The notes under the pieces were generated by a model. That model worked only from the letters and a program-made list of their open reading frames with translations, had not been told where the DNA came from and searched no databases. The translations under genes were made by a program, and so were the position numbers. A DNA stretch of 52,452 nucleotides from Synergistaceae bacterium (GTDB lineage: Bacteria > Synergistota > Synergistia > Synergistales > Aminobacteriaceae), in NCBI GenBank assembly GCA_031267575.1, contig JAIRYN010000040.1, positions 1-52,452 of the forward strand, written 5' to 3'. Below are positions 13,017 to 23,855 of this stretch, one piece after another. Position 1 is the stretch's first letter, and each line of letters begins with the position of its first letter.

Positions 13017-13475
13017 TTATTTTTCTGCTCCTCGATATACTTCATGATAGTTTTCTCTGAAATATGCCCTACAGATTCACAACAGATTCACAACAGATTC
13101 ACAGTAGTACGAACGTGTCCACAAGGAAGGCATTTTCAGGAGATGAGGAAATTCCAAGCGCAATACTCTTGCGGTATAGCCCTTGAGCTGTCGGACAATC
13201 GCGACCGACTGCTCGGTTTCCGGTTCGATATAGTGAGGAGCGTTTATAGGCCGCGTTTTGACACGTGTTTTGACAAAGGCGTGAATGTGATCCGGCATGA
13301 TCTCAAGCTTCGCAATCTGAACATCGATCTCCTCAGCTTTCTCGTATAAAAGTTCTTTGAGTCGAATTTCTACATCACCAACAAGCACCTTGCGCCGATA
13401 TTTTGGACACCAGATAAGATGCTAGCCAATATTGAACACAGATGTGTTCGAATGAATCCATCGTTGATAAACCAT
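13013..13475 (-). pseudogene. tnpA: TnpA (IS200/IS605 Y1 transposase), decayed
   Basis: The copy at the right end of the window shows the intact reading. Here codon 18 is TAG (13422-13424) where the other copy has Tyr. Downstream the frame is open again with the HUH motif in 'LEIMPDHIHAFVKT' and 'LKMPSLWTRSYYCES'. Two further lesions are visible: an in-frame insertion after KTR that includes a duplicated VKTR, and an 11-bp sequence present three times near 13075-13110 that shifts the frame before the last 25 or so residues. It cannot make an active transposase. Confidence 0.85.
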
Positions 13476-13647
13476 AAAAGGAGTTTAATATGAAAGTAGA
13501 TATATGGCAAAAAACCAAATACAAAACAAACGCCGCCAACGGCGGTGTTGCGATTCTCATCCAATCTCATCCAATCTCATCCAATCTCATCCGACGCCTG
13601 AAGCTGTTGGCTTTCTCATCGCTTTATCGTAATTGGCTGAATTGAGC

Positions 13648-13676
13648 TTGACAAACGAGGCTTTCCAAGTTATAAA
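13648..13676 (+). promoter_or_regulatory. Strong sigma-70-type promoter for the aromatic leader
   Basis: TTGACA (13648-13653), 17-base spacer, TATAAA (13671-13676). It lies 20 bases beyond the IS left end and about 88 bases before the leader-peptide ATG. It is the best promoter match in the window. Confidence 0.75.
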
Positions 13677-13763
13677 TTGTTCACGTGATGAATCGAAGGC
13701 GAAGAGAAGATGAAGAGAAGATAGAGAAGATGAAGAGAAGATAAAGAAAGGAGGCACGGAGAC

Positions 13764-13889
13764 ATGAGAAGTAAGAATATACTTGAAATATCGAGCGGAA
13801 ATAGGCGAAGCTACTCTTATGTCGCGTGGTTCTACTTTAGAAGCATGGGTCTCGGTTTGCATGAGATCTGTGGGAGTTCTCTTCGGTAA
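13764..13889 (+). CDS. Putative Tyr/Trp/Phe leader peptide (attenuation)
   Basis: A 41-codon ORF with AAAGGAGG ten bases before its ATG. Residues 17-25 read YSYVAWFYF, six aromatics in nine positions (three Tyr, two Phe, one Trp) covering all three end products of the shikimate pathway. An intrinsic terminator starts 55 bases after the stop codon, and the shikimate operon lies downstream on the same strand. I infer that ribosomes stalling at these codons when aromatic amino acids are scarce would favour an antiterminator. The peptide has no family resemblance and its own product is probably of no use. Confidence 0.65.
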   Translation: MRSKNILEISSGNRRSYSYVAWFYFRSMGLGLHEICGSSLR

Positions 13890-13952
13890 CTGAAAAACGG
13901 TAACTGAAAAACAAGAGCAACTAGCACGTATCGAAATGTGAGGCCGAGATCC
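13847..13952 (+). promoter_or_regulatory. Candidate antiterminator pairing
   Basis: GGGTCTCGG (13847-13855, inside the leader ORF just after the aromatic codons) can pair over all nine bases, with one G-U, with CCGAGATCC (13944-13952). The latter contains almost all of the left arm of the terminator, so the two structures exclude each other. GAGATC (13863-13868) can instead pair with GGTCTC (13848-13853) and release the terminator arm. This is the three-way competition expected of an attenuator. Positions are read directly; the mechanism is inferred. Confidence 0.55.
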
Positions 13953-13973
13953 GGAAACGGGTCTCGTTTTTTT
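13945..13973 (+). terminator. Intrinsic terminator in the aromatic leader
   Basis: CGAGATCCG, GAAA tetraloop, CGGGTCTCG, then seven Ts: a nine-pair stem (one G-T) with a U tract. It separates the leader peptide from the DUF262 gene and the aro operon. Confidence 0.85.
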
Positions 13974-13999
13974 CGTGGTCTATATGAGGAGAGACACAA

Positions 14000-16111
14000 A
14001 TGGCCAATGAACTTCAATCTTTATCAGTCCTTTTTCAAAATAGGTTGTTTCGCATACCCGACTATCAGCGAGGTTATGCCTGGAAATATGAGCAGCTAGC
14101 GGATTTTTGGGAGGATCTGCTAAATTTGCACAAAGACAGATATCATTACACAGGGTTACTTTCACTAAAGGCAATCACTCGAAAAGATCGGCGTTTATGG
14201 CATGAAGACGATTGGCTGCTTGATCATGGATTTAAGCCATTTCACGTTGTGGATGGACAGCAACGTCTAACCACGTTCTCCATTTTGATGAATGAAATAA
14301 CGGTTTTTGTGAAAAACATCGATAAAAACAGTGATAAGCTGGATAGCGAGATATTTCTGGGGATAGAATCACTGAAAGACATTAAAGCAAAGTATGTCCT
14401 CCGAAAACGACCTCCGGAGAATATCGTGACAACGTACCTTTTCGGATATGAAACCGACAATCCAAGTTTCGACTATCTCAAATACAGGATCTTCAAAGAA
14501 CCCTTCGGAGGCACGGTTTCTGAAAGTTACTACACAAAGAACCTGAAATACGCTAAAACATTTTTTGCCGACAATCTTGAGGTAATGTATAAAAGTGATG
14601 GAATGGACGGAATCGAGCTACTGTACAAGAAGCTAACTCTGCAACTCATGTTCAATCTCCACGAAATTGAAGATGATTATGACGTTTACGTTGCATTTGA
14701 AACGATGAACAACCGGGGCAAAAAGCTAACAAATTTGGAGCTGCTGAAAAACCGCCTCATATACCTCACGACCCTTTTCGATGACAAGCAGCTCGATACG
14801 AGAGACAAAGAGCAACTTCGGCAAAATATCAACGATACTTGGAAAGAGGTGTATTTCCAACTTGGGCGTAACCAGAATACGCCTCTATCCGATGACGATT
14901 TCCTCCGCGCACACTGGATCACTTATTTTCAGTATTCAAGGAAGCGTGGTGATGACTATATTAGTTTTTTACTGAGAAAATTCTCGGCAAAAAATGTATT
15001 CGAGAAATTTACCGTCGCCACGCAGGTCGATATTTCTGAAGCGTTACCAGCACTTGGCTTTGAAGCTACGAATGAAGACGATGACGATATTATTGACGAA
15101 ACAGTCGAGTTGAAACCCGTTCGGGGTTCTAAACTCGCCTACACAGAGATCCGCGATTATGTGAACGCTCTAAAAGTGTTAGCCGAATATTGGTATTACA
15201 GCTATTTCCCGAATGACGACACATTCGCTCTTACGGACGAAGAAAAGGTATGGATAGACAAACTGAACCGTGTCGGTATCGGGCACTTCAGACCGCTTGT
15301 CGCTACTGTACTCGCTACAGCGAATAGCACTACTGTTGCAGAACGTATTGCGCTTTTTCAGGAAATTGAAAGATTTCTCTTTATATCATTTCGTGTCGGC
15401 GGTTTCAATGCGAGTTATAAGAGCAGTTATTATTACAATAAAGCACGAGATATTATGCGAGGTAACACAACCTTGCCTTCAATTGTAAGTGATTTAACTG
15501 CAAATATTGATAAGAATATGGACGAGGCCATCGCCCAATTTATTACACGCACCCACAGACGTTTCAGTGCAGGGGAAGGATTCTACAGCTGGCATGGACT
15601 CGGTTATTTCTTATACGAGTATGAGTATGTTTTGGCTACTCGCAACAAATTGCAGAAAATTAATTGGAATCTATTCACTAATATCGAAAAGGACAGGGTG
15701 ACTATTGAGCATATTCTCCCACGAACACCGGCGAAATGGTATTGGCGTAATCACTTCAGACAATACACCAGTGATGAAGTCAAACTGCTATCGGCCTCTT
15801 TGGGCAATTTGCTTCCACTCGCCCAGAGTATTAATTCTTCATTGCAAAACGATAGTTTCCCTGATAAGAAAACCCCCCTCTCTTCCAAGCGTAGAGGTTA
15901 TGTAAATGGTTCACATTCTGAAATTGAGGTGGCTTCAGAGCAGGATTGGACAGCGCGAAGTATATTGAATCGCGGACTGTCGCTACTGAATTTCATGGAG
16001 TCGAGGTGGAGATTTTCACTTAATGATGAGCAGAAAGCGCAGCTACTTCACATCGAGTTTGTGAACGATGGACGCGCGGAAATACCTGAACTGCCGAAAG
16101 GCGAAGAATGA
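14000..16111 (+). CDS. DUF262/DUF1524 protein, GmrSD-like restriction endonuclease
   Basis: A 703-residue protein with an N-terminal DUF262 domain ('FRIPDYQRGYAW' at 17-28, 'VVDGQQRLTTF' at about 83-93), a long helical middle, and a C-terminal DUF1524 His-Me-type nuclease region ('RVTIEHILPRTP' around His571, then 'LGNLLPLAQSIN'). In GmrSD these domains couple nucleotide hydrolysis to cutting of modified phage DNA, so an anti-phage role is likely but not shown. GAGGAGAG precedes the ATG. It is visibly more AT-rich than the aro genes and lies between a terminator-ended leader and aroB, which suggests horizontal insertion into the leader of the aro operon. Confidence 0.85.
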   Translation: MANELQSLSVLFQNRLFRIPDYQRGYAWKYEQLADFWEDLLNLHKDRYHYTGLLSLKAITRKDRRLWHEDDWLLDHGFKPFHVVDGQQRLTTFSILMNEITVFVKNIDKNSDKLDSEIFLGIESLKDIKAKYVLRKRPPENIVTTYLFGYETDNPSFDYLKYRIFKEPFGGTVSESYYTKNLKYAKTFFADNLEVMYKSDGMDGIELLYKKLTLQLMFNLHEIEDDYDVYVAFETMNNRGKKLTNLELLKNRLIYLTTLFDDKQLDTRDKEQLRQNINDTWKEVYFQLGRNQNTPLSDDDFLRAHWITYFQYSRKRGDDYISFLLRKFSAKNVFEKFTVATQVDISEALPALGFEATNEDDDDIIDETVELKPVRGSKLAYTEIRDYVNALKVLAEYWYYSYFPNDDTFALTDEEKVWIDKLNRVGIGHFRPLVATVLATANSTTVAERIALFQEIERFLFISFRVGGFNASYKSSYYYNKARDIMRGNTTLPSIVSDLTANIDKNMDEAIAQFITRTHRRFSAGEGFYSWHGLGYFLYEYEYVLATRNKLQKINWNLFTNIEKDRVTIEHILPRTPAKWYWRNHFRQYTSDEVKLLSASLGNLLPLAQSINSSLQNDSFPDKKTPLSSKRRGYVNGSHSEIEVASEQDWTARSILNRGLSLLNFMESRWRFSLNDEQKAQLLHIEFVNDGRAEIPELPKGEE

Positions 16112-16197
16112 TAATTGCTCAATTAACAAGCGGGTGTCTTACCTGTTATCGAGCGATTAAAAAAAGCACACAAAAATCTGAAAGAGAGGTCGATTTA

Positions 16198-17340
16198 ATG
16201 GAAGCCACAAAAACTTTAACCGTCAGGCTATCGGGAAACGAATACGACATCCTAATCGGAGACGGGCTACTGAAAAGTCTCGGAGACCTTTTGAAAAGCC
16301 GGTGCGCGAAAGCGATCGGCGGTTCCGTTTCGGTGGTCACGGACGAGAACGTCTGGGCGCTTTACCGCGAGCCCTTTTCCCTCTCGCTGACCGAGGCCGG
16401 GATAGCCTTTCACGTCACGGTTCTACCCGCCGGCGAGGGGAGCAAATCTCCGCATGGGCTCTCCCTCCTGTACGACGCTTTCGCGAGACAGGGCATGACC
16501 CGGTCACAACTTGTCGTCGTCTTCGGCGGTGGCGTCCCCGGCGACTTGGGCGGGTTTGCGGCCGCCACATGGATGCGCGGCGTCGGCTTCGTCCAAGTCC
16601 CCACCACGCTCATCGCCCAGGTAGACTCCAGCGTGGGAGGAAAGACCGCCATTGACCTGCCCCAGGGTAAAAACCTCGTCGGCGCGTTCCACCAGCCAAA
16701 ACTCGTCGTCATCGACCCCCTCACCCTGCAAACCTTACCCGAACGCGAGGAGAAAAGCGGCGCGGCGGAGGTCATCAAATATGGTGCGATCCGTTCCCTC
16801 TCCCTGTTTGAATCCCTCGGCGTGGGAGGCAAACCCGGAGACCCCGACGTCATCCACGAATGTTGCCGTGTCAAAAGCGAAATCGTGGAACGCGACGAGC
16901 GCGACTTCGGGGAACGGATGCTGCTCAACTTCGGACATACTTTCGGACACGCCATAGAGAAGGAAACCGGCTTCGAGCGATACCGCCACGGAGAAGCCGT
17001 CGCCTTCGGCATGACCCTGGCGGCGGCGATAGGGGAAAAAATGGGACTCACCGAGCCCGGCTCCGTGAACGCTCTGAGACGCGTCTTGAATTTGCACGGG
17101 CTCGACGCGGATTTAAACATTCAAGCTCAGGGGGACGGAGCACGTTCAGCCAGAAGCGACTTTACTGGCCTCCCTGAAACCCCTGGCTCCGGCGATCCCC
17201 TCGCCCTGCTCCCCGCCCTGGCGGCAGACAAAAAAAGCCTCGGCAGCGGGATACAAATGGTTTTTCTGCGCCGCATCGGCGAGGCGTTCGTGCGCCACAC
17301 GACACTACCCGAACTCGAAGCGGCGTTAAAGGCCCTATGA
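16198..17340 (+). CDS. aroB: 3-dehydroquinate synthase
   Basis: Second step of the shikimate pathway, DAHP to 3-dehydroquinate, NAD- and metal-dependent. The ATG at 16198 is chosen because GAGAGG lies seven bases before it; the frame is open back to 16108 but without homology. Family blocks: 'GGGVPGDLGGFAAATWMRG' (the usual VVGD is VPGD here), 'PTTLIAQVDSSVGGKTAID', 'LVGAFHQPKLVVIDP', 'AAEVIKYGAIRS', and 'FGHTFGHAIE' with metal-ligand His. Length 380 residues, a little long, with an insert at about 310-335. It is the first gene of the tightly packed aro operon. Confidence 0.95.
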   Translation: MEATKTLTVRLSGNEYDILIGDGLLKSLGDLLKSRCAKAIGGSVSVVTDENVWALYREPFSLSLTEAGIAFHVTVLPAGEGSKSPHGLSLLYDAFARQGMTRSQLVVVFGGGVPGDLGGFAAATWMRGVGFVQVPTTLIAQVDSSVGGKTAIDLPQGKNLVGAFHQPKLVVIDPLTLQTLPEREEKSGAAEVIKYGAIRSLSLFESLGVGGKPGDPDVIHECCRVKSEIVERDERDFGERMLLNFGHTFGHAIEKETGFERYRHGEAVAFGMTLAAAIGEKMGLTEPGSVNALRRVLNLHGLDADLNIQAQGDGARSARSDFTGLPETPGSGDPLALLPALAADKKSLGSGIQMVFLRRIGEAFVRHTTLPELEAALKAL

Positions 17341-17358
17341 GAATGATCTGAGAGTGAT

Positions 17359-18732
17359 ATGAGAATGAACGGATCGAATGTTATGAGCGACGCCGATACG
17401 AACCACACGAAAAACGTGAAGATCATCGACCGCTTTCCCAAGGGTGTCATCACACCCCCGCCGTCCAAGAGCCTGTCCCATCGCGCGCTGATCTGCGCGG
17501 CCCTGGCGGACGGTGAGAGCCTGATCGAAAACTTCGAGGGGTCCGAGGACCTCGACGCTACCCTTAAAGGTCTCGAAGTGCTGCGGGGAGCGCAGTTTCT
17601 CCCGAAAAATGACGGAGTTCGAGTCACTGTTGCAGGTCTTCCTGTGGAACATGATGGCGTCCGTGTCGTGGACTGCGGCGAGTCGGGATCGACCTTGCGA
17701 TTTCTGCTGCCCGTCGCCCTGCTGGATGGGTTCCGTACTGTCTTTCGGGGAAGTGGAAGGCTCCTACAACGACCTCTGGACATTTACGAAAAAATTTTTA
17801 CCGGCGCCGGAGCGCTCTTTGTACGAGAACCGGGTCAGGTGATAATTCAGGGGTCCAGGACCCAGGGGCCTCAGACTCAAGGGCCGTGGCCTCGCGAGTC
17901 CTTGGATTTAAGGAAAATTCTGCTGCCTGGCGACGTGAGTTCTCAGTTTATCTCCGGCTTGCTGCTGGCATTGCCGGTTTTTGGTCAATTCGGACAGGAC
18001 AGCGAGGTCCGTCTTTCGACGCCCCTAGAGTCACGGGGGTACGTGGACCTGACGATAGACGTCATGAGGCGTTTCGGCGTGAAAGTGGAAGAAGCGGAGA
18101 CGGAAACGGGAAACTCCCTTTATTTCGTCCGCGGAGGACAACGTTATCACCCCACCCGTTATGGAGTCGAGGCGGACTACTCCCAGGCGGCGTTCTTCCT
18201 GGTCGCGGCGGCACTGAGCTCGGACGTGACGGTGGCCAGTTTGAACCCCGAAAGTCTTCAAGGCGACAAAGCCATTTTGACGGCCTTAAAAGAAGCGGGC
18301 GCGGAGGTTTTGTGGCGCGACGGCAAGACGTCGGTGTCCTCAGCCCGCCTCTCGGCTATCACGTTCGACGCTCGGGACACGCCAGATCTGGTACCTCCTG
18401 TGGCGGCACTCTGTTGTTTTTGTGAAGGCACGAGTCATATCGTGGGCGCGGGGCGACTAAGGCTAAAGGAAAGCGACAGGTTAAGCGCGCTGGCGGCCGA
18501 ACTGAAAAAGCTGGGCGCCCAGGTGACGGAGGCCGAGGACTCCCTGTCCATCACGGGAACCCGTCTAAAGGGCGGAAAGGTCGACGCCTGGGGTGACCAC
18601 CGTATAGCGATGGCCCTGGCGGTGACCGCGATCCGCTGCAACGGCCAGGTATGCCTTTCGGGCTGGCGGAGTGTGAAGAAATCTTATCCAAACTTTTGGC
18701 GTGATTTCGAGCAGGTTGCGAAAATATCATGA
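17359..18732 (+). CDS. aroA: EPSP synthase
   Basis: 3-phosphoshikimate 1-carboxyvinyltransferase, the step before chorismate synthase. 'TPPPSKSLSHRALI' binds phosphoenolpyruvate and shikimate-3-phosphate; 'DCGESGSTLRFLLPVALL', 'RLKESDRLSALAAELKKLG' and 'WGDHRIAMALAV' are also present. Length of 457 residues is slightly above the norm because of a 15-20 residue N-terminal extension and a low-complexity QGS/TQGP insert at about 155-170. The start is uncertain among closely spaced ATGs at 17359, 17365 and 17383, in a stretch with repeated GAGAATG-like units. Its stop overlaps aroC by ATGA. Confidence 0.95.
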   Translation: MRMNGSNVMSDADTNHTKNVKIIDRFPKGVITPPPSKSLSHRALICAALADGESLIENFEGSEDLDATLKGLEVLRGAQFLPKNDGVRVTVAGLPVEHDGVRVVDCGESGSTLRFLLPVALLDGFRTVFRGSGRLLQRPLDIYEKIFTGAGALFVREPGQVIIQGSRTQGPQTQGPWPRESLDLRKILLPGDVSSQFISGLLLALPVFGQFGQDSEVRLSTPLESRGYVDLTIDVMRRFGVKVEEAETETGNSLYFVRGGQRYHPTRYGVEADYSQAAFFLVAAALSSDVTVASLNPESLQGDKAILTALKEAGAEVLWRDGKTSVSSARLSAITFDARDTPDLVPPVAALCCFCEGTSHIVGAGRLRLKESDRLSALAAELKKLGAQVTEAEDSLSITGTRLKGGKVDAWGDHRIAMALAVTAIRCNGQVCLSGWRSVKKSYPNFWRDFEQVAKIS

Positions 18733-19814
18733 ATGTCTGGGGCAACAGGGTCAAGCTGTCCATTTTCGGCGAATCTCATGGGAAATCCGTCGGCATCGTG
18801 ATCGACGGGCTTCCTCCTGGTGAGGCCGTCGATCTGGGCGAGGTCGCGCGCGAAATGCGTCGACGCGCCCCCGGCAGAAACGCGCTCTCCTCCGGAAGGC
18901 AGGAGGAAGACTCCGTTGAGATTCTCAGCGGGCTCTATAAAGGGAGGACAACCGGTTTTCCGGTCTGTGGTGTGATTTACAACAAAGACGCGCGGTCGCG
19001 GGATTACGACTCAAAGCTGCGGCCTGGCCACGCGGATTGGACGGCGCTTCTGAAATACGGCGGGCACGCCGATATGCGAGGTGGAGGGCATTTTTCCGGC
19101 AGACTGACCGCGCCCCTTTGTTTTGCTGGGAGCCTGGCGAAGCAAATTTTGTCGAGGCGAGGCATCAAGGCTTACGCCCGCGTCGATGTCATCGGCAGAG
19201 TGATAGAACCCGAAGTGCCTGTCTCCTCTGAGGAATACCGCGCCGTTTCCTTCAGAGAATTTCCCTCGTCGCCTTCTGCGGAAGAAGCGATGAAAGCAGA
19301 GATCGAAAAAGCGCTCAAGGAGGGCGATTCCGTGGGCGGCGTCGTGGCGGCTGCCGCGTTTGGACTGCCCGGCGGACTGGGGGAACCTTTTTTCGGATCG
19401 ATGGAGAGCGCGATCGCTTCCCTGCTTTTTTCCATACCGGCCGTAAAGGGCGTGGAGTTCGGCGACGGTTTCCGCCTCGCCCTCATGCGCGGCAGCGAGG
19501 CCAACGACGCCCTTTATATTGGCAATCCAGAAAATCCGGAAAACGGGAGCATCCGGGCGCGAACAAACCACAATGGCGGAATTTTAGGCGGGATCACGAA
19601 CGGTATGCCCCTCTTGGTGAGAGCGGCAATCAAGCCAACGCCCTCCATCTCGCGGCCTCAAGAAACGGTGGATGGCGAGACGAAGCGGGAAACAATTCTT
19701 CGCGTCTCCGGCAGGCACGACCCCTGCGTCGTTCCCCGCGCCGTGCCCGTGGTGGAATCGTGTCTCGCCTTTTGCGTTCTCGATGGTCTGATGACATGCG
19801 GAGCGCCTCTATGA
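18729..19814 (+). CDS. aroC: Chorismate synthase
   Basis: Converts EPSP to chorismate with reduced FMN. Starts 'MNVWGNRVKLSIFGESHGKS', with the family signature 'GESHG' and its His. Further family parts are 'RRAPGRNALSSGRQEED', 'RPGHADW', 'GGGHFSGRLTAPLCFAG' and 'NHNGGILGGITNGMPL'. The 361-residue length is normal. Four-base ATGA overlaps with both aroA and aroKE point to translational coupling. Confidence 0.96.
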   Translation: MNVWGNRVKLSIFGESHGKSVGIVIDGLPPGEAVDLGEVAREMRRRAPGRNALSSGRQEEDSVEILSGLYKGRTTGFPVCGVIYNKDARSRDYDSKLRPGHADWTALLKYGGHADMRGGGHFSGRLTAPLCFAGSLAKQILSRRGIKAYARVDVIGRVIEPEVPVSSEEYRAVSFREFPSSPSAEEAMKAEIEKALKEGDSVGGVVAAAAFGLPGGLGEPFFGSMESAIASLLFSIPAVKGVEFGDGFRLALMRGSEANDALYIGNPENPENGSIRARTNHNGGILGGITNGMPLLVRAAIKPTPSISRPQETVDGETKRETILRVSGRHDPCVVPRAVPVVESCLAFCVLDGLMTCGAPL

Positions 19815-21193
19815 TCAGGCTGGTCGCCTTGATCGGCCTCTCCGGCAGTGGCAAATCCAGCCTCGGCCAGGCTCTCGCGGAGCGCTTCTCCATGCCCTTC
19901 CTGGATACGGACCTTCTCGTGGAGGAGCGGGCGGGAATGCCCATACGGCGTATTTTCGAGCTGCGCGGTGAGGAATTTTTCCGCGACCTGGAAACGCGTG
20001 TGGTGAGGGAAATTGCCGAGAGGCCGGCCATCATCGCCACCGGAGGCGGGGTCGTTCTGAGGCAAGAAAACATCCAGGCTCTGCGGCAAAACGGGTTTGT
20101 CATTTTCCTGGACCGCCCTGTGGAACGCATCCTAGAGAACGTGCGTTATGACAAGAGCCGCCCCCTCCTGAGTTCTCCCGAAAAGCTACGCGAGATGGAA
20201 CAGGAGAGGCGCGCTCTTTATCAGGAAGCCGCACACGCGACGTTGCGAAACAACGCCGACCTGGAGGAAGGCGTTGATAAGCTGGTGGAACTGGCGGCGG
20301 ATGTCCTAATCGAAGCGCCTTCGAGCGGCTATTCCGTCATTGGGTACCCCATTGAGCATACGCTTTCCCCGGTCATTCACGGGACGATTTTCGATGCCAT
20401 AGGCATAAGCATAAGCTCCTCCTATTCAGCCATTCGGGTCCCACGGGGCGCTCTTCGTAGTTTCACGGAAAAGGCACGTGTCTCCGGGCTGCGGGGCTTC
20501 AATGTGACGTTGCCCCATAAGAGGGATATCATCCCTTTTTTGGATGCGGTGGACGATGAAGCCCGACTTTGCGGCGCTGTTAACACTGTTGTTGTCGACG
20601 GTGGCCGGCTTTCGGGATTCAACACCGACATGGAGGGGCTTTTGGCGTCGCTGCGGGACAACGGTCACGAGTATCGAAACCGCAACGTCGTGATCTTGGG
20701 GGCCGGCGGCGCTTCTCGGGGCGTGGTTTTCAAGGCCGCTCTGGAAAAAGCCGCTAAAATTGTCATTCTGAGCCGGCGCCGGGAGAAAGCGGAGGAAATC
20801 GCGTCGGAAGTCGAGAGGGCTGTCGCTGGCTGTCACGTCCGGGCTTGTCGCCTGTTGCCGGACGCCTTGGCCGAAGCCGCCGGTGAGGCCGACATTCTGA
20901 TCAACGCTACTCCTATGGGCATGATCGGTATTGGAGAGGATTTTTCCTCGTTGGAGTTCCTGCGCAGCCTTCCGCGCGACGCCTTGGTCTGCGACCTGGT
21001 TTACGACCCACCCCTCACCAACCTCCTGCGCGAGGCGTGGGCTTTGGGGCACGCCGTGCAAAACGGGCTGGGGATGCTCGTTCATCAAGCTATTCTGGCG
21101 GATGAGCTTTTTTTAGGGCGGCAACTGGATAGATCTTCTTTATATCAAACCGTTTACACAAAATTATCGAATGAGGGACTGACACAACAATGA
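19811..21193 (+). CDS. aroKE: Shikimate kinase - shikimate dehydrogenase fusion
   Basis: One 460-residue chain with two enzymes. Residues 1-165 are shikimate kinase: P-loop 'GLSGSGKSS' at 9-17, Asp in 'LDTDLLVEERAG', 'GGGVVLR' and the lid 'KSRPLLSS'. Residues about 175-460 are shikimate dehydrogenase: 'VIGYPIEHTLSPVIHG', catalytic Lys in 'GFNVTLPHKRD', Asp in 'GFNTDMEG', NADP loop 'ILGAGGASRG' and 'LINATPMGM'. There is no stop or restart between them. The start is the ATG in the ATGA overlap with aroC. The order in the chain (AroK then AroE) is reversed relative to the reactions. Confidence 0.94.
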   Translation: MIRLVALIGLSGSGKSSLGQALAERFSMPFLDTDLLVEERAGMPIRRIFELRGEEFFRDLETRVVREIAERPAIIATGGGVVLRQENIQALRQNGFVIFLDRPVERILENVRYDKSRPLLSSPEKLREMEQERRALYQEAAHATLRNNADLEEGVDKLVELAADVLIEAPSSGYSVIGYPIEHTLSPVIHGTIFDAIGISISSSYSAIRVPRGALRSFTEKARVSGLRGFNVTLPHKRDIIPFLDAVDDEARLCGAVNTVVVDGGRLSGFNTDMEGLLASLRDNGHEYRNRNVVILGAGGASRGVVFKAALEKAAKIVILSRRREKAEEIASEVERAVAGCHVRACRLLPDALAEAAGEADILINATPMGMIGIGEDFSSLEFLRSLPRDALVCDLVYDPPLTNLLREAWALGHAVQNGLGMLVHQAILADELFLGRQLDRSSLYQTVYTKLSNEGLTQQ

Positions 21194-22200
21194 TCGTCAT
21201 ACTGAAACCGGACGTCACGAAAGAGCAGATTGACGCCATCAAGAATGAAATGATTCAAAAAAACCTGATCGTTCAAGAAATACAGGGGGAGACGACGTAC
21301 ATGCTCGGCCTTGCCGGAAACACGGCAGTGCTCTCGACCGAGGACCTCACGCGTCGGGACGGCATAGAGCGCGTCATGAAAGTGTCCGAGCCCTACAAGC
21401 TCGCCAGCCGGCGCTTTCACCCCCAGGACACCACGGTGGATTTTCCCAGAGGCCAGAAGATCGGAAGCGGAGTCCTGGCGGTGATTGCCGGGCCTTGTTC
21501 GGTCGAAAGCGAGGAACAAATTCTCTCCATAGCCAGAGAAGTAAAACTTTCTGGGGCAAGTTTTCTCAGAGGAGGGGCGTTCAAGCCGCGGAGTTCACCT
21601 TACGCTTTTCAGGGCCTGGGTCTAGACGGTCTGGATCTTCTGAAGATAGCCCGCGAAAAAACAGGACTCCCGATCGTAAGTGAGATTATGTCGCAGGAAT
21701 ACTGTGAGGTGTTTGCCAGGGATGTGGACGTCATACAGATCGGCGCGCGAAATATGCAGAATTTCCCGCTGCTCCGAGAGATGGGAAACACCGGAAAACC
21801 GATTCTCCTGAAGCGAGGACCGTCCTCCACGCTCGACGAGATGTTGCAGGCCGCGGATTATGTGCTGGCTGGCGGCAAAAGTCAGGTCATCCTCTGCGAG
21901 CGGGGTATCCGTACCTTCGAAACGGCGACCCGGAACACCCTGGATATCTCGGCTGTGCCCGTGCTCAAGAAACGGTCGCACCTTCCGGTGGTGGTGGATC
22001 CTTCTCACGGAACGGGACACTGGGATTTGGTCTTGCCCATGGCAATGGCCGCCATCGCCGCGGGGGCGGATGGTTTGATGATCGAGGTGCACAACCGGCC
22101 GGAGAAAGCGCTTTGTGACGGGCAACAGTCCATAACGCCCTTCCTCTTCGACCGGTTGATGCGGAAAGCGAAAAAGTTACACGCGGTAATGGCAGCTTAA
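21190..22200 (+). CDS. aroF: 3-deoxy-7-phosphoheptulonate (DAHP) synthase
   Basis: First enzyme of the pathway, joining phosphoenolpyruvate and erythrose-4-phosphate. The 336-residue protein has an N-terminal ferredoxin-like regulatory domain (1-70, '[18 protein letters not shown]') and a barrel of the I-beta type, the arrangement known from Thermotoga, where tyrosine acts through the N-terminal domain. Core motifs: '[11 protein letters not shown]', '[17 protein letters not shown]', '[14 protein letters not shown]', 'LLKRGPSST', 'DPSHGTGH'. It starts in an ATGA overlap with aroKE. Feedback control by an aromatic amino acid is likely from the domain; which one cannot be told. Confidence 0.95.
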
Positions 22201-22277: not shown

Positions 22278-23408
22278 ATGAACGGCAACGCAAAACTGAA
22301 TGCTTTACGCGAACGAATCGACGAGATCGACAGGCAGTTGGTTCCTCTTTTCGAGGAACGAATGGGCGTTTCTCTCGAAATAGCGGAAGTGAAGGTCGAA
22401 AACAACGCGCCCATTCAAGACGAGGCCCGCGAGCGGGAAGTGGTGGAGCACGCCCTCGCTCTGGCGAATCACGAGCTGAAAAGCGAGGTTTCCCTGTTGA
22501 TGCGATCCATTATCGCCCTCTCGCGGACGCATCAGCGCGCCAAAATATTCCACGGCGAAACACCGATGTTGCCCCCGGCCCGTGAGCTCATCCGCGAAAA
22601 CGTCACCTGCGCTTTTCAGGGTGTGCCTGGAGCTTGGAGCGAACAGGCGTCGATCAAACTCTTTCCAGACGCTTCGCGCCTGCCAGTGGAGTTCTTCGAG
22701 GACGTTTTTCTCGCGGTGAAGGAAAACAGGGTTCATTACGGCGTTGTGGCCATCGAGAACTCCCAAACGGGAGCCATTGGGGAGACCTACGACTTGTTGC
22801 GCAAATACGGCTGTTTCATCGTGGGGCGCACGTGGGTAGATATCCGGCAATGTCTGCTCGCTTCAGCCGGCACAGCATTGAGCGATATCCGCGAGGTCCT
22901 TTCTCATTCCGAAGGCTTCAAGCAATGCGCTCGTTTCCTGCGCGGCCGGTCCTGGGACCTGACCGCCTCACGGAACACCGCCGTTGCCGCGAAGACGATC
23001 GCTCAGGAGAAGGGCGGCAACGGTAGGAGAGCCGCGATAGGATCCCGGCGGGCGGCCGAACTGAACGGCCTGGAAGTGCTCGTACCCGACATCATGGATT
23101 CCACGGACAATCGGACGTCTTTTGTGGTGATCGCCACAGCTCCGGAATATGACGAGACTTCCAATCTGGTCTCCGTTACATTCTCCACGGAACATCGAGC
23201 GGGGGCTCTTTGCGAGGCCTTGATGCCTTTCATGGCGCAGGGCATCAACTTGGTGCGGATAGAGTCCCGCCCTGCGTCGGGCGGTAGTTATCGTTTCTTC
23301 GTGGAACTCGACGGCAATATCCTGGATCCCGGCATTTTATCGACCTTGAAACAGGCGTCTGCCGCCTGCCAGTATTTCGAGGTCATCGGCTGCTACAAAA
23401 ACACATAA
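22278..23408 (+). CDS. pheA: Chorismate mutase - prephenate dehydratase (P-protein)
   Basis: Turns chorismate into phenylpyruvate for phenylalanine. Residues 1-90 are an AroQ-type chorismate mutase ('LNALRERIDEIDRQLVPLFE', 'IIALSRTHQR'). Residues about 110-285 are the dehydratase ('CAFQGVPGAWSEQA', 'YGVVAIENSQTGAIGETYDL', 'DNRTSFVVIA', where TSF replaces the usual TRF). Residues about 300-376 form an ACT domain with 'GALCEALMPF' and 'RIESRPASGG', the phenylalanine-binding motifs. GGAGGAGAG precedes the ATG. No prephenate dehydrogenase gene is in the operon, so tyrosine synthesis must be completed elsewhere if it occurs. Confidence 0.95.
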   Translation: MNGNAKLNALRERIDEIDRQLVPLFEERMGVSLEIAEVKVENNAPIQDEAREREVVEHALALANHELKSEVSLLMRSIIALSRTHQRAKIFHGETPMLPPARELIRENVTCAFQGVPGAWSEQASIKLFPDASRLPVEFFEDVFLAVKENRVHYGVVAIENSQTGAIGETYDLLRKYGCFIVGRTWVDIRQCLLASAGTALSDIREVLSHSEGFKQCARFLRGRSWDLTASRNTAVAAKTIAQEKGGNGRRAAIGSRRAAELNGLEVLVPDIMDSTDNRTSFVVIATAPEYDETSNLVSVTFSTEHRAGALCEALMPFMAQGINLVRIESRPASGGSYRFFVELDGNILDPGILSTLKQASAACQYFEVIGCYKNT

Positions 23409-23432: not shown

Positions 23433-23855
23433 ATGAAGAAAATCATCGTCGTCAATGGCCCAAACATGAACCTGCTCGGCGTGAGGGAACCCGACCGATA
23501 CGGAAGCGAGACTTTGGAGAGCGTCAACGAGCGGATAGCGGAGGAAGCAACGAAACTTGGCGTAGAGTGTGAATTCTTCCAGAGCAATTCCGAGGGTGAA
23601 CTTGTCTCCGTTATTCAAAAGGCCGCCCGCGCGGATGGGGTCATTCTCAACGCCGCCGCCTACACCCATTACAGCATAGCCATCCGGGACGCCATCGCGG
23701 CGATCGCGCCACCGGTGGTGGAGGTGCACCTCTCGAACGTCCACGCCAGGGAAGCGTTTCGCCACGTTTCAGTCATCGCCCCGGTCTGCCGGGGCGTTAT
23801 CGCCGGATTCGGCGCGAAGGGCTATATTCTCGCCCTGCACGCTCTCGCTGGCTGA
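23433..23855 (+). CDS. aroQ: 3-dehydroquinate dehydratase, type II
   Basis: Dehydrates 3-dehydroquinate to 3-dehydroshikimate. '[19 protein letters not shown]' with the lid Tyr, '[11 protein letters not shown]', '[16 protein letters not shown]' with catalytic His-Tyr, '[11 protein letters not shown]' and 'GFGAKGY' are all standard. Length of 140 residues is typical. The ribosome binding site is doubled by an 11-bp tandem repeat (AAAAAGGAGCG twice). With aroB, aroA, aroC, aroKE and aroF this completes all seven activities from DAHP to chorismate in one operon. Confidence 0.96.

Follow-up and report, generated by a model that had tools for sequence, protein, structure and literature searches.

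Known Attenuators and the Synergistales Element

Ribosome-mediated attenuation is a classical mechanism, and control by leader peptides is best known from proteobacteria and actinobacteria. Attenuators of the E. coli trp, pheA, and his type combine a short leader open reading frame (ORF) containing codons for the end product with mutually exclusive antiterminator and terminator structures, and depend on the coupling of transcription and translation. An element with the same properties is found at 13648-13973 of a 52,452-nucleotide stretch of DNA (the window) from a Synergistaceae bacterium (GCA_031267575.1, contig JAIRYN010000040.1; assembly of 2.76 Mb in 76 contigs). Very likely it attenuates transcription by a ribosome-mediated mechanism, in response to charged tRNA-Phe and tRNA-Tyr, and so controls the aro operon located downstream. 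It differs from the E. coli type in that its A:B hairpin lies wholly downstream of the sensor codons, beginning, in the window, 5 nt beyond the last Phe codon. The 1:2/2:3/3:4 layout of the trp type is not found, there being no first hairpin with sensor codons in its 5' arm. The element further differs by recurring in many operons of one order, the Synergistales.

T-box leaders also control amino acid genes by way of tRNA charging, but do so without a leader peptide, and no T-box (RF00230) was found at 13648-13973. The Rfam models Trp_leader and Phe_leader did not match the window leader at E-values up to 10, and no Rfam leader reached its gathering score in the window or in the loci of 27 relatives. 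A BLASTN search of the leader against phages gave no match.

Candidate upstream ORFs (uORFs) with Phe and Tyr codons on shikimate genes are displayed in Fig. 6b of PMC6429828, a study of five genomes, one of them that of the Synergistetes member Thermovirga lienii. The main text of that article gives neither source genome nor mechanism for these uORFs, which are possible members of the Synergistales family. The uORFC-13-1 motif of Acholeplasma aroF (PMC8632094) comprises a promoter, a ribosome binding site (RBS), a short uORF with a Phe codon, and a terminator ahead of the DAHP synthase gene. It resembles the Synergistales element in this layout but is confined to Acholeplasma and environmental sequences. 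No description of this attenuator family turned up in an open-access search of the literature for Synergistetes leader peptides. It is thus well supported that the Synergistales Phe/Tyr attenuator is a new family of a known mechanism, and it seems to be uncatalogued in that order.

The Leader and Its Alternative Structures

The coordinates of the element and of the genes behind it are given in Table 1. The promoter matches at 11 of 12 positions, a score with a chance rate of 0.25% of windows of that size. Six of the nine sensor codons are aromatic, and the leader ORF is the sole short ORF in the 52-kb window with at least six aromatic codons in nine and a good RBS; dinucleotide shuffles (n = 20) contained 0.05 such ORFs on average. 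AG-rich repeats (GAAGAGAAGAT) are found inside the leader RNA at about 13699-13746.

Table 1. Features of the leader and of the genes downstream of it (positions in the window)
Feature	Position	Strand	Remarks
Promoter TTGACA-17-TATAAA	13648-13676	+	Shared with two relatives and with the tyrA copy
Leader RBS AAAGGAGG	13747-13754	+	
Leader peptide ORF, 41 codons and TAA, MRSKNILEISSGNRRSYSYVAWFYFRSMGLGLHEICGSSLR	13764-13889	+	Position and motif conserved across 71 distinct leaders
Sensor codons Y-S-Y-V-A-W-F-Y-F	13812-13838	+	Last three are the counterpart of the family motif F-S-F
Strand A	13844-13855	+	Partner is B (terminated state) or D (antiterminated state)
Strand B	13862-13872	+	Completes the A:B hairpin (-12.8 kcal/mol); in the antiterminator its TGTG is paired with C
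Strand B' (GTTCTCTT)	13876-13883	+	Pairs with C
Strand C (AAGAGCAACTAGCACG)	13913-13928	+	
Strand D	13934-13952	+	Contains CCGAGATCC at 13944-13952; 3' arm of antiterminator or 5' arm of terminator
Intrinsic terminator	13945-13973	+	9-bp stem (13945-13966), 4-nt loop, T7
GmrSD-type restriction endonuclease (DUF262), 703 aa	14000-16111	+	Pfam GmrSD_N and GmrSD_C; PADLOC HEC-06, Orf5, mREase_IV
aroB	16195-17340	+	
aroA (EPSP synthase)	17359-18732	+	
aroC (chorismate synthase)	18729-19814	+	
Shikimate kinase/shikimate dehydrogenase fusion	19760-21193	+	Start codon uncertain
aroF (DAHP synthase)	21190-22200	+	
pheA (chorismate mutase/prephenate dehydratase)	22278-23408	+	
aroQ (type II dehydroquinase)	23433-23855	+	

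Two alternative states are predicted for the leader RNA. One consists of the hairpins A:B, B':C, and D:E, the last being the terminator, while in the other A pairs with D and B/B':C is nested inside. The core of strand A (GGGTCTCGG, 13847-13855) begins 8-9 nt past the last Phe codon in the window, and 8-10 nt past it in seven of eight leaders compared. The RNA from strand A to strand D (13844-13954) takes the predicted antiterminator fold, with an energy of -44.5 kcal/mol (z = -6.6).

An earlier, sequence-only reading of the window had proposed attenuation of the shikimate operon from a promoter, a 41-codon leader ORF with RBS and aromatic codons, a terminator, and competing pairings. All of these are present, among them the GAGATC of the competing hairpin at 13863-13868, and the proposal is now strongly supported by folding and by comparison with relatives. 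The pairing of GGGTCTCGG with CCGAGATCC, thought to block the terminator, is likewise found, but the antiterminator had been underestimated as a 9-bp helix and is in fact a long nested hairpin spanning 13847-13952.

Both states are retained in an alignment of eight leaders. In the antiterminated state 91.9% of the cells are paired, compared with at most 45% when the partners are slid, and in the terminated state 93.1% are paired, compared with at most 51%; the latter state also includes eight pairs with changes on both sides. Across 61 distinct sequences, aligned with a model containing no A:D pairs, the A:D pairs are formed in 89% of the cells, with slid partners reaching at most 67%. The element thus has a translatable leader ORF with an RBS, a cluster of end-product codons, an intrinsic terminator ahead of the genes, and a conserved antiterminator that excludes this terminator.

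Conservation in Front of aro Genes

BLASTN located the leader in two relatives, before aroF-pheA in G017 and before pheA in G028. Inspection of operon starts added aroB in G020, tyrA-aroB and aroA in G008, and tyrA-aroA in G024. The restriction gene is absent from the matching place in all five. Relatives lacking the DUF262 gene had been named in the sequence-only reading as a check that it could have failed; the leader, the sensor codons, the antiterminator, and the terminator are all kept before their aro genes. A covariance model built from seven leaders detected an eighth strong copy in the genome of the window itself, located before tyrA. This copy reads MRYELAIYYKSFYYYTIFSFISMGPDSRRICACRGPA and is rich in Tyr, which would fit a tyrosine gene.

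A strict motif pattern matched only three of 83 genomes of the family and was too narrow, so that the covariance model was needed. Weak matches of this model such as L192, L196, and L197 were dropped because they look like plain terminators. A contig scan for aroB yielded distant neighbourhoods of this gene only, and these were left out of the comparison. Three short aroB loci from the Synergistales genus g28 gave no match to the model, and screening of short loci around aroB in other families revealed no aromatic-rich leaders.

Proposed Mechanism

A ribosome held on the Tyr or Phe codons (up to codon 25) would leave strand A free to pair with D, with B/B':C inside, so that the terminator is blocked and transcription goes on. 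With an ample supply of Phe and Tyr the ribosome would advance and cover A and B during the synthesis of D and E by RNA polymerase; A would then refold with B, D would pair with E, and transcription would stop. The GmrSD-type gene between the switch and the operon would probably be switched together with the operon.

This model was examined by equilibrium folding in silico of eight leaders, with a ribosome placed on each codon in turn and the RNA blocked from 18 nt before the A-site codon to 12 nt beyond it. In seven of the eight, transcripts ending before strand E favor A:D when the ribosome occupies the last Phe codon or a position just upstream of it, and one to two codons further on this pairing has gone. 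In G008_tyrA, where FSF reads FSL, A:D peaks at Ser20, one codon past the last Phe, and drops at Leu21, while in G017 A:D is seen only at the last two sensor positions. The full-length window RNA switches as well: while the ribosome occupies the sensor codons A:D forms at 0.72-0.99, and once it has reached the stop codon the terminator forms at 0.86 and A:B at 0.82. In these calculations the fold depends on whether the ribosome stands on the sensor codons. The ORF, the sensor codons, and both structures are conserved, and the last Phe codon coincides with the switch point; from this we infer a response to the amino acids in the cell.

Several observations weigh against attenuation as proposed here. 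For most relatives the full-length RNA adopts the terminator at equilibrium wherever the ribosome stands, which means that kinetics must settle the outcome. Before E is transcribed, a ribosome at the stop codon could let A:D form again in most leaders, and the folds predicted for ribosome-free RNA differ between members. The A:D match owes much to plain sequence conservation, as arms swapped between members still pair at 84%. In most members the sensor consists of two Phe codons only. Finally, the codon choice of the motif is nearly fixed as TTC TCC TTT (first Phe TTC in 56 of 65 leaders, second Phe TTT in 59 of 65), indicating a further constraint at the nucleotide level beyond decoding.

The fixed TTC TCC TTT, the counterpart of 13830-13838 in the window, resembles an anti-Shine-Dalgarno sequence. 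As a general cause of the fixed codons, base pairing between these FSF codons and the leader RBS was considered and not adopted, since the window (TTC TAC TTT) and the YSY leaders break the rule.

Alternative Explanations

In the sequence-only reading the leader was taken to sense Phe, Tyr, and Trp jointly, matching the common pathway, and a leader of this kind was regarded as unusual. The sensor run does include one Trp codon (13827-13829), but a Trp codon stands beside the core motif in only four of 65 leaders, the window's included, and none is found elsewhere in the ten codons before the motif. The homologous codon in the G017 leader is GGG. Moreover, trpE of the window genome is preceded by a T-box-like leader containing AAGGTGGCACCGCGG (L224 about 1990-2461, G000:C49; RF00230, 43.3 bits, E 4e-8, below the gathering score of 93). 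It was found when a Trp leader peptide was sought for this gene, a candidate that was rejected for this reason. The rarity of the Trp codon and the T-box-like leader at trpE do not support a three-amino-acid sensor, and we regard joint sensing as unlikely. The shared sensor of the compared leaders is F-S-F plus an extra Tyr or Phe, Trp being no shared input. As to how unusual the leader is, the Trp part of the claim is unsupported, and Phe/Tyr candidates on shikimate genes were already reported, as displayed in PMC6429828 and described in PMC8632094. The near-fixed motif also raises the question of whether ribosome arrest is caused by the conserved peptide FSFxxxDPxxxGICA itself, through nascent-chain sensing of a metabolite, rather than by slow decoding of Phe and Tyr codons. 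Motif and codon choice are indeed more fixed than decoding alone demands. However, the conserved tail belongs to the A:B hairpin, as its coding part, and varies along with it. The sensor residues, for their part, follow the gene behind them, being YSY ahead of paaK3 in two genera, LLLGL ahead of leuA, and rich in Tyr ahead of tyrA. Both points make such arrest highly improbable.

The attenuator might instead now serve mainly the restriction gene, with the aro operon having its own promoter further down. This gene is the nearest one downstream and begins 26 nt past the terminator. In the relatives, though, aro or paaK genes lie directly behind the element, and no promoter-like site was found on the + strand at 14370-17500 by a scan that also misses the leader promoter, whose -10 box ends in A. 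Such a division of control is therefore quite improbable. Control of the aro operon by the attenuator remains the preferred explanation, and the distance of 2.2 kb to aroB, the acknowledged weak point of the sequence-only reading, is accounted for by the GmrSD-type gene, which fills it. As the relatives lack this gene there, it was likely inserted between switch and operon, and gene and operon alike should be transcribed by read-through. Judged from the relatives and the single genome that represents this genus, the gene is most likely an insertion, and it is probably under the same control as the aro operon. Placed behind the switch, this defence gene would become linked to amino acid starvation.

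Distribution in Synergistales and the paaK Leaders

The covariance model R2, whose E-values are rough owing to a short calibration, identified 63 loci at E < 1e-7 in 43 of 183 Synergistales genomes belonging to two families, and weaker loci in others. Leader ORFs were picked by ATG and Shine-Dalgarno strength alone. A motif of the F/Y-S-F/Y type is present in 65 of 71 distinct leaders; behind it comes the conserved coding segment of the A:B hairpin, which often reads DPxxxGICA. The first gene recognised behind the leader encodes a PaaK-like CoA ligase in 43 of the fetched loci and is tyrA, aroB, or aroA in ten; an MFS carrier, leuA, or other genes are found in the rest. In sister groups most leaders precede paaK-like ligases.

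In five g40 genomes and one g51 genome an F-S-F leader precedes one paaK paralogue and a Y-S-Y leader the next. The two paaK-like paralogues are consecutive in L271, L272, L274, L275, L267, and L273, with the F-S-F leader first and the Y-S-Y leader second. From its codons this pair predicts ligases specific for phenylacetate and 4-hydroxyphenylacetate, respectively. The sensor codons would thereby predict the substrate of the unassigned ligase genes, and a regulatory sequence becomes a testable functional annotation.

Chorismate synthase is lacking in the near-complete genomes G013, G166, G167, G169, G170, and G172, all with paaK leaders. Control by starvation for Phe and Tyr would imply that the PaaK-like ligases help to make Phe and Tyr from arylacetates and do not act in Phe breakdown, and the simplest reading is that they feed arylacetates into this synthesis. 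A broader proposal is that one attenuator design exists throughout Synergistales, with sensor codons fitted to the gene behind: F-S-F for shikimate genes and paaK, Y-S-Y for the second paaK paralogue in two genera, and similar Leu-run leaders for leuA. In this proposal the PaaK-like ligases work in Phe and Tyr synthesis from arylacetates rather than in Phe breakdown, and the restriction gene of the window genome has been captured under this switch. Taken as a whole, it has about an even chance of being correct. The structurally conserved design itself extends through an order of largely amino-acid-fermenting anaerobes.

Leucine versions of the leader, LLLGL, are found before leuA. In three relatives NLLLGLC or GLLLGLC leaders and a terminator precede this gene (L217 2292-2421, L220 2158-2300, and L298 163-299). 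In the window genome the leader-like ORF MGKNLFIFFKFSLLLVIIISLIRGSSGGVIGV and a terminator precede a gene for a YkvI-like membrane protein (L226, G000:C56:22230-22344, minus strand); this looks like a branched-chain amino acid leader. A leader-like ORF reading FSFTFWRCC is followed by a terminator at L218 2804-2929 (G007:C97), where no known gene was recognised behind it.

Sequences Upstream of the Leader

Upstream of the leader promoter there is a short tandem repeat of CTCATCCAAT units (13557-13592). Just upstream of the leader, on the minus strand, lies an ORF of 103 aa (13077-13388) for an IS200-like transposase (Y1_Tnp), which is probably partial.

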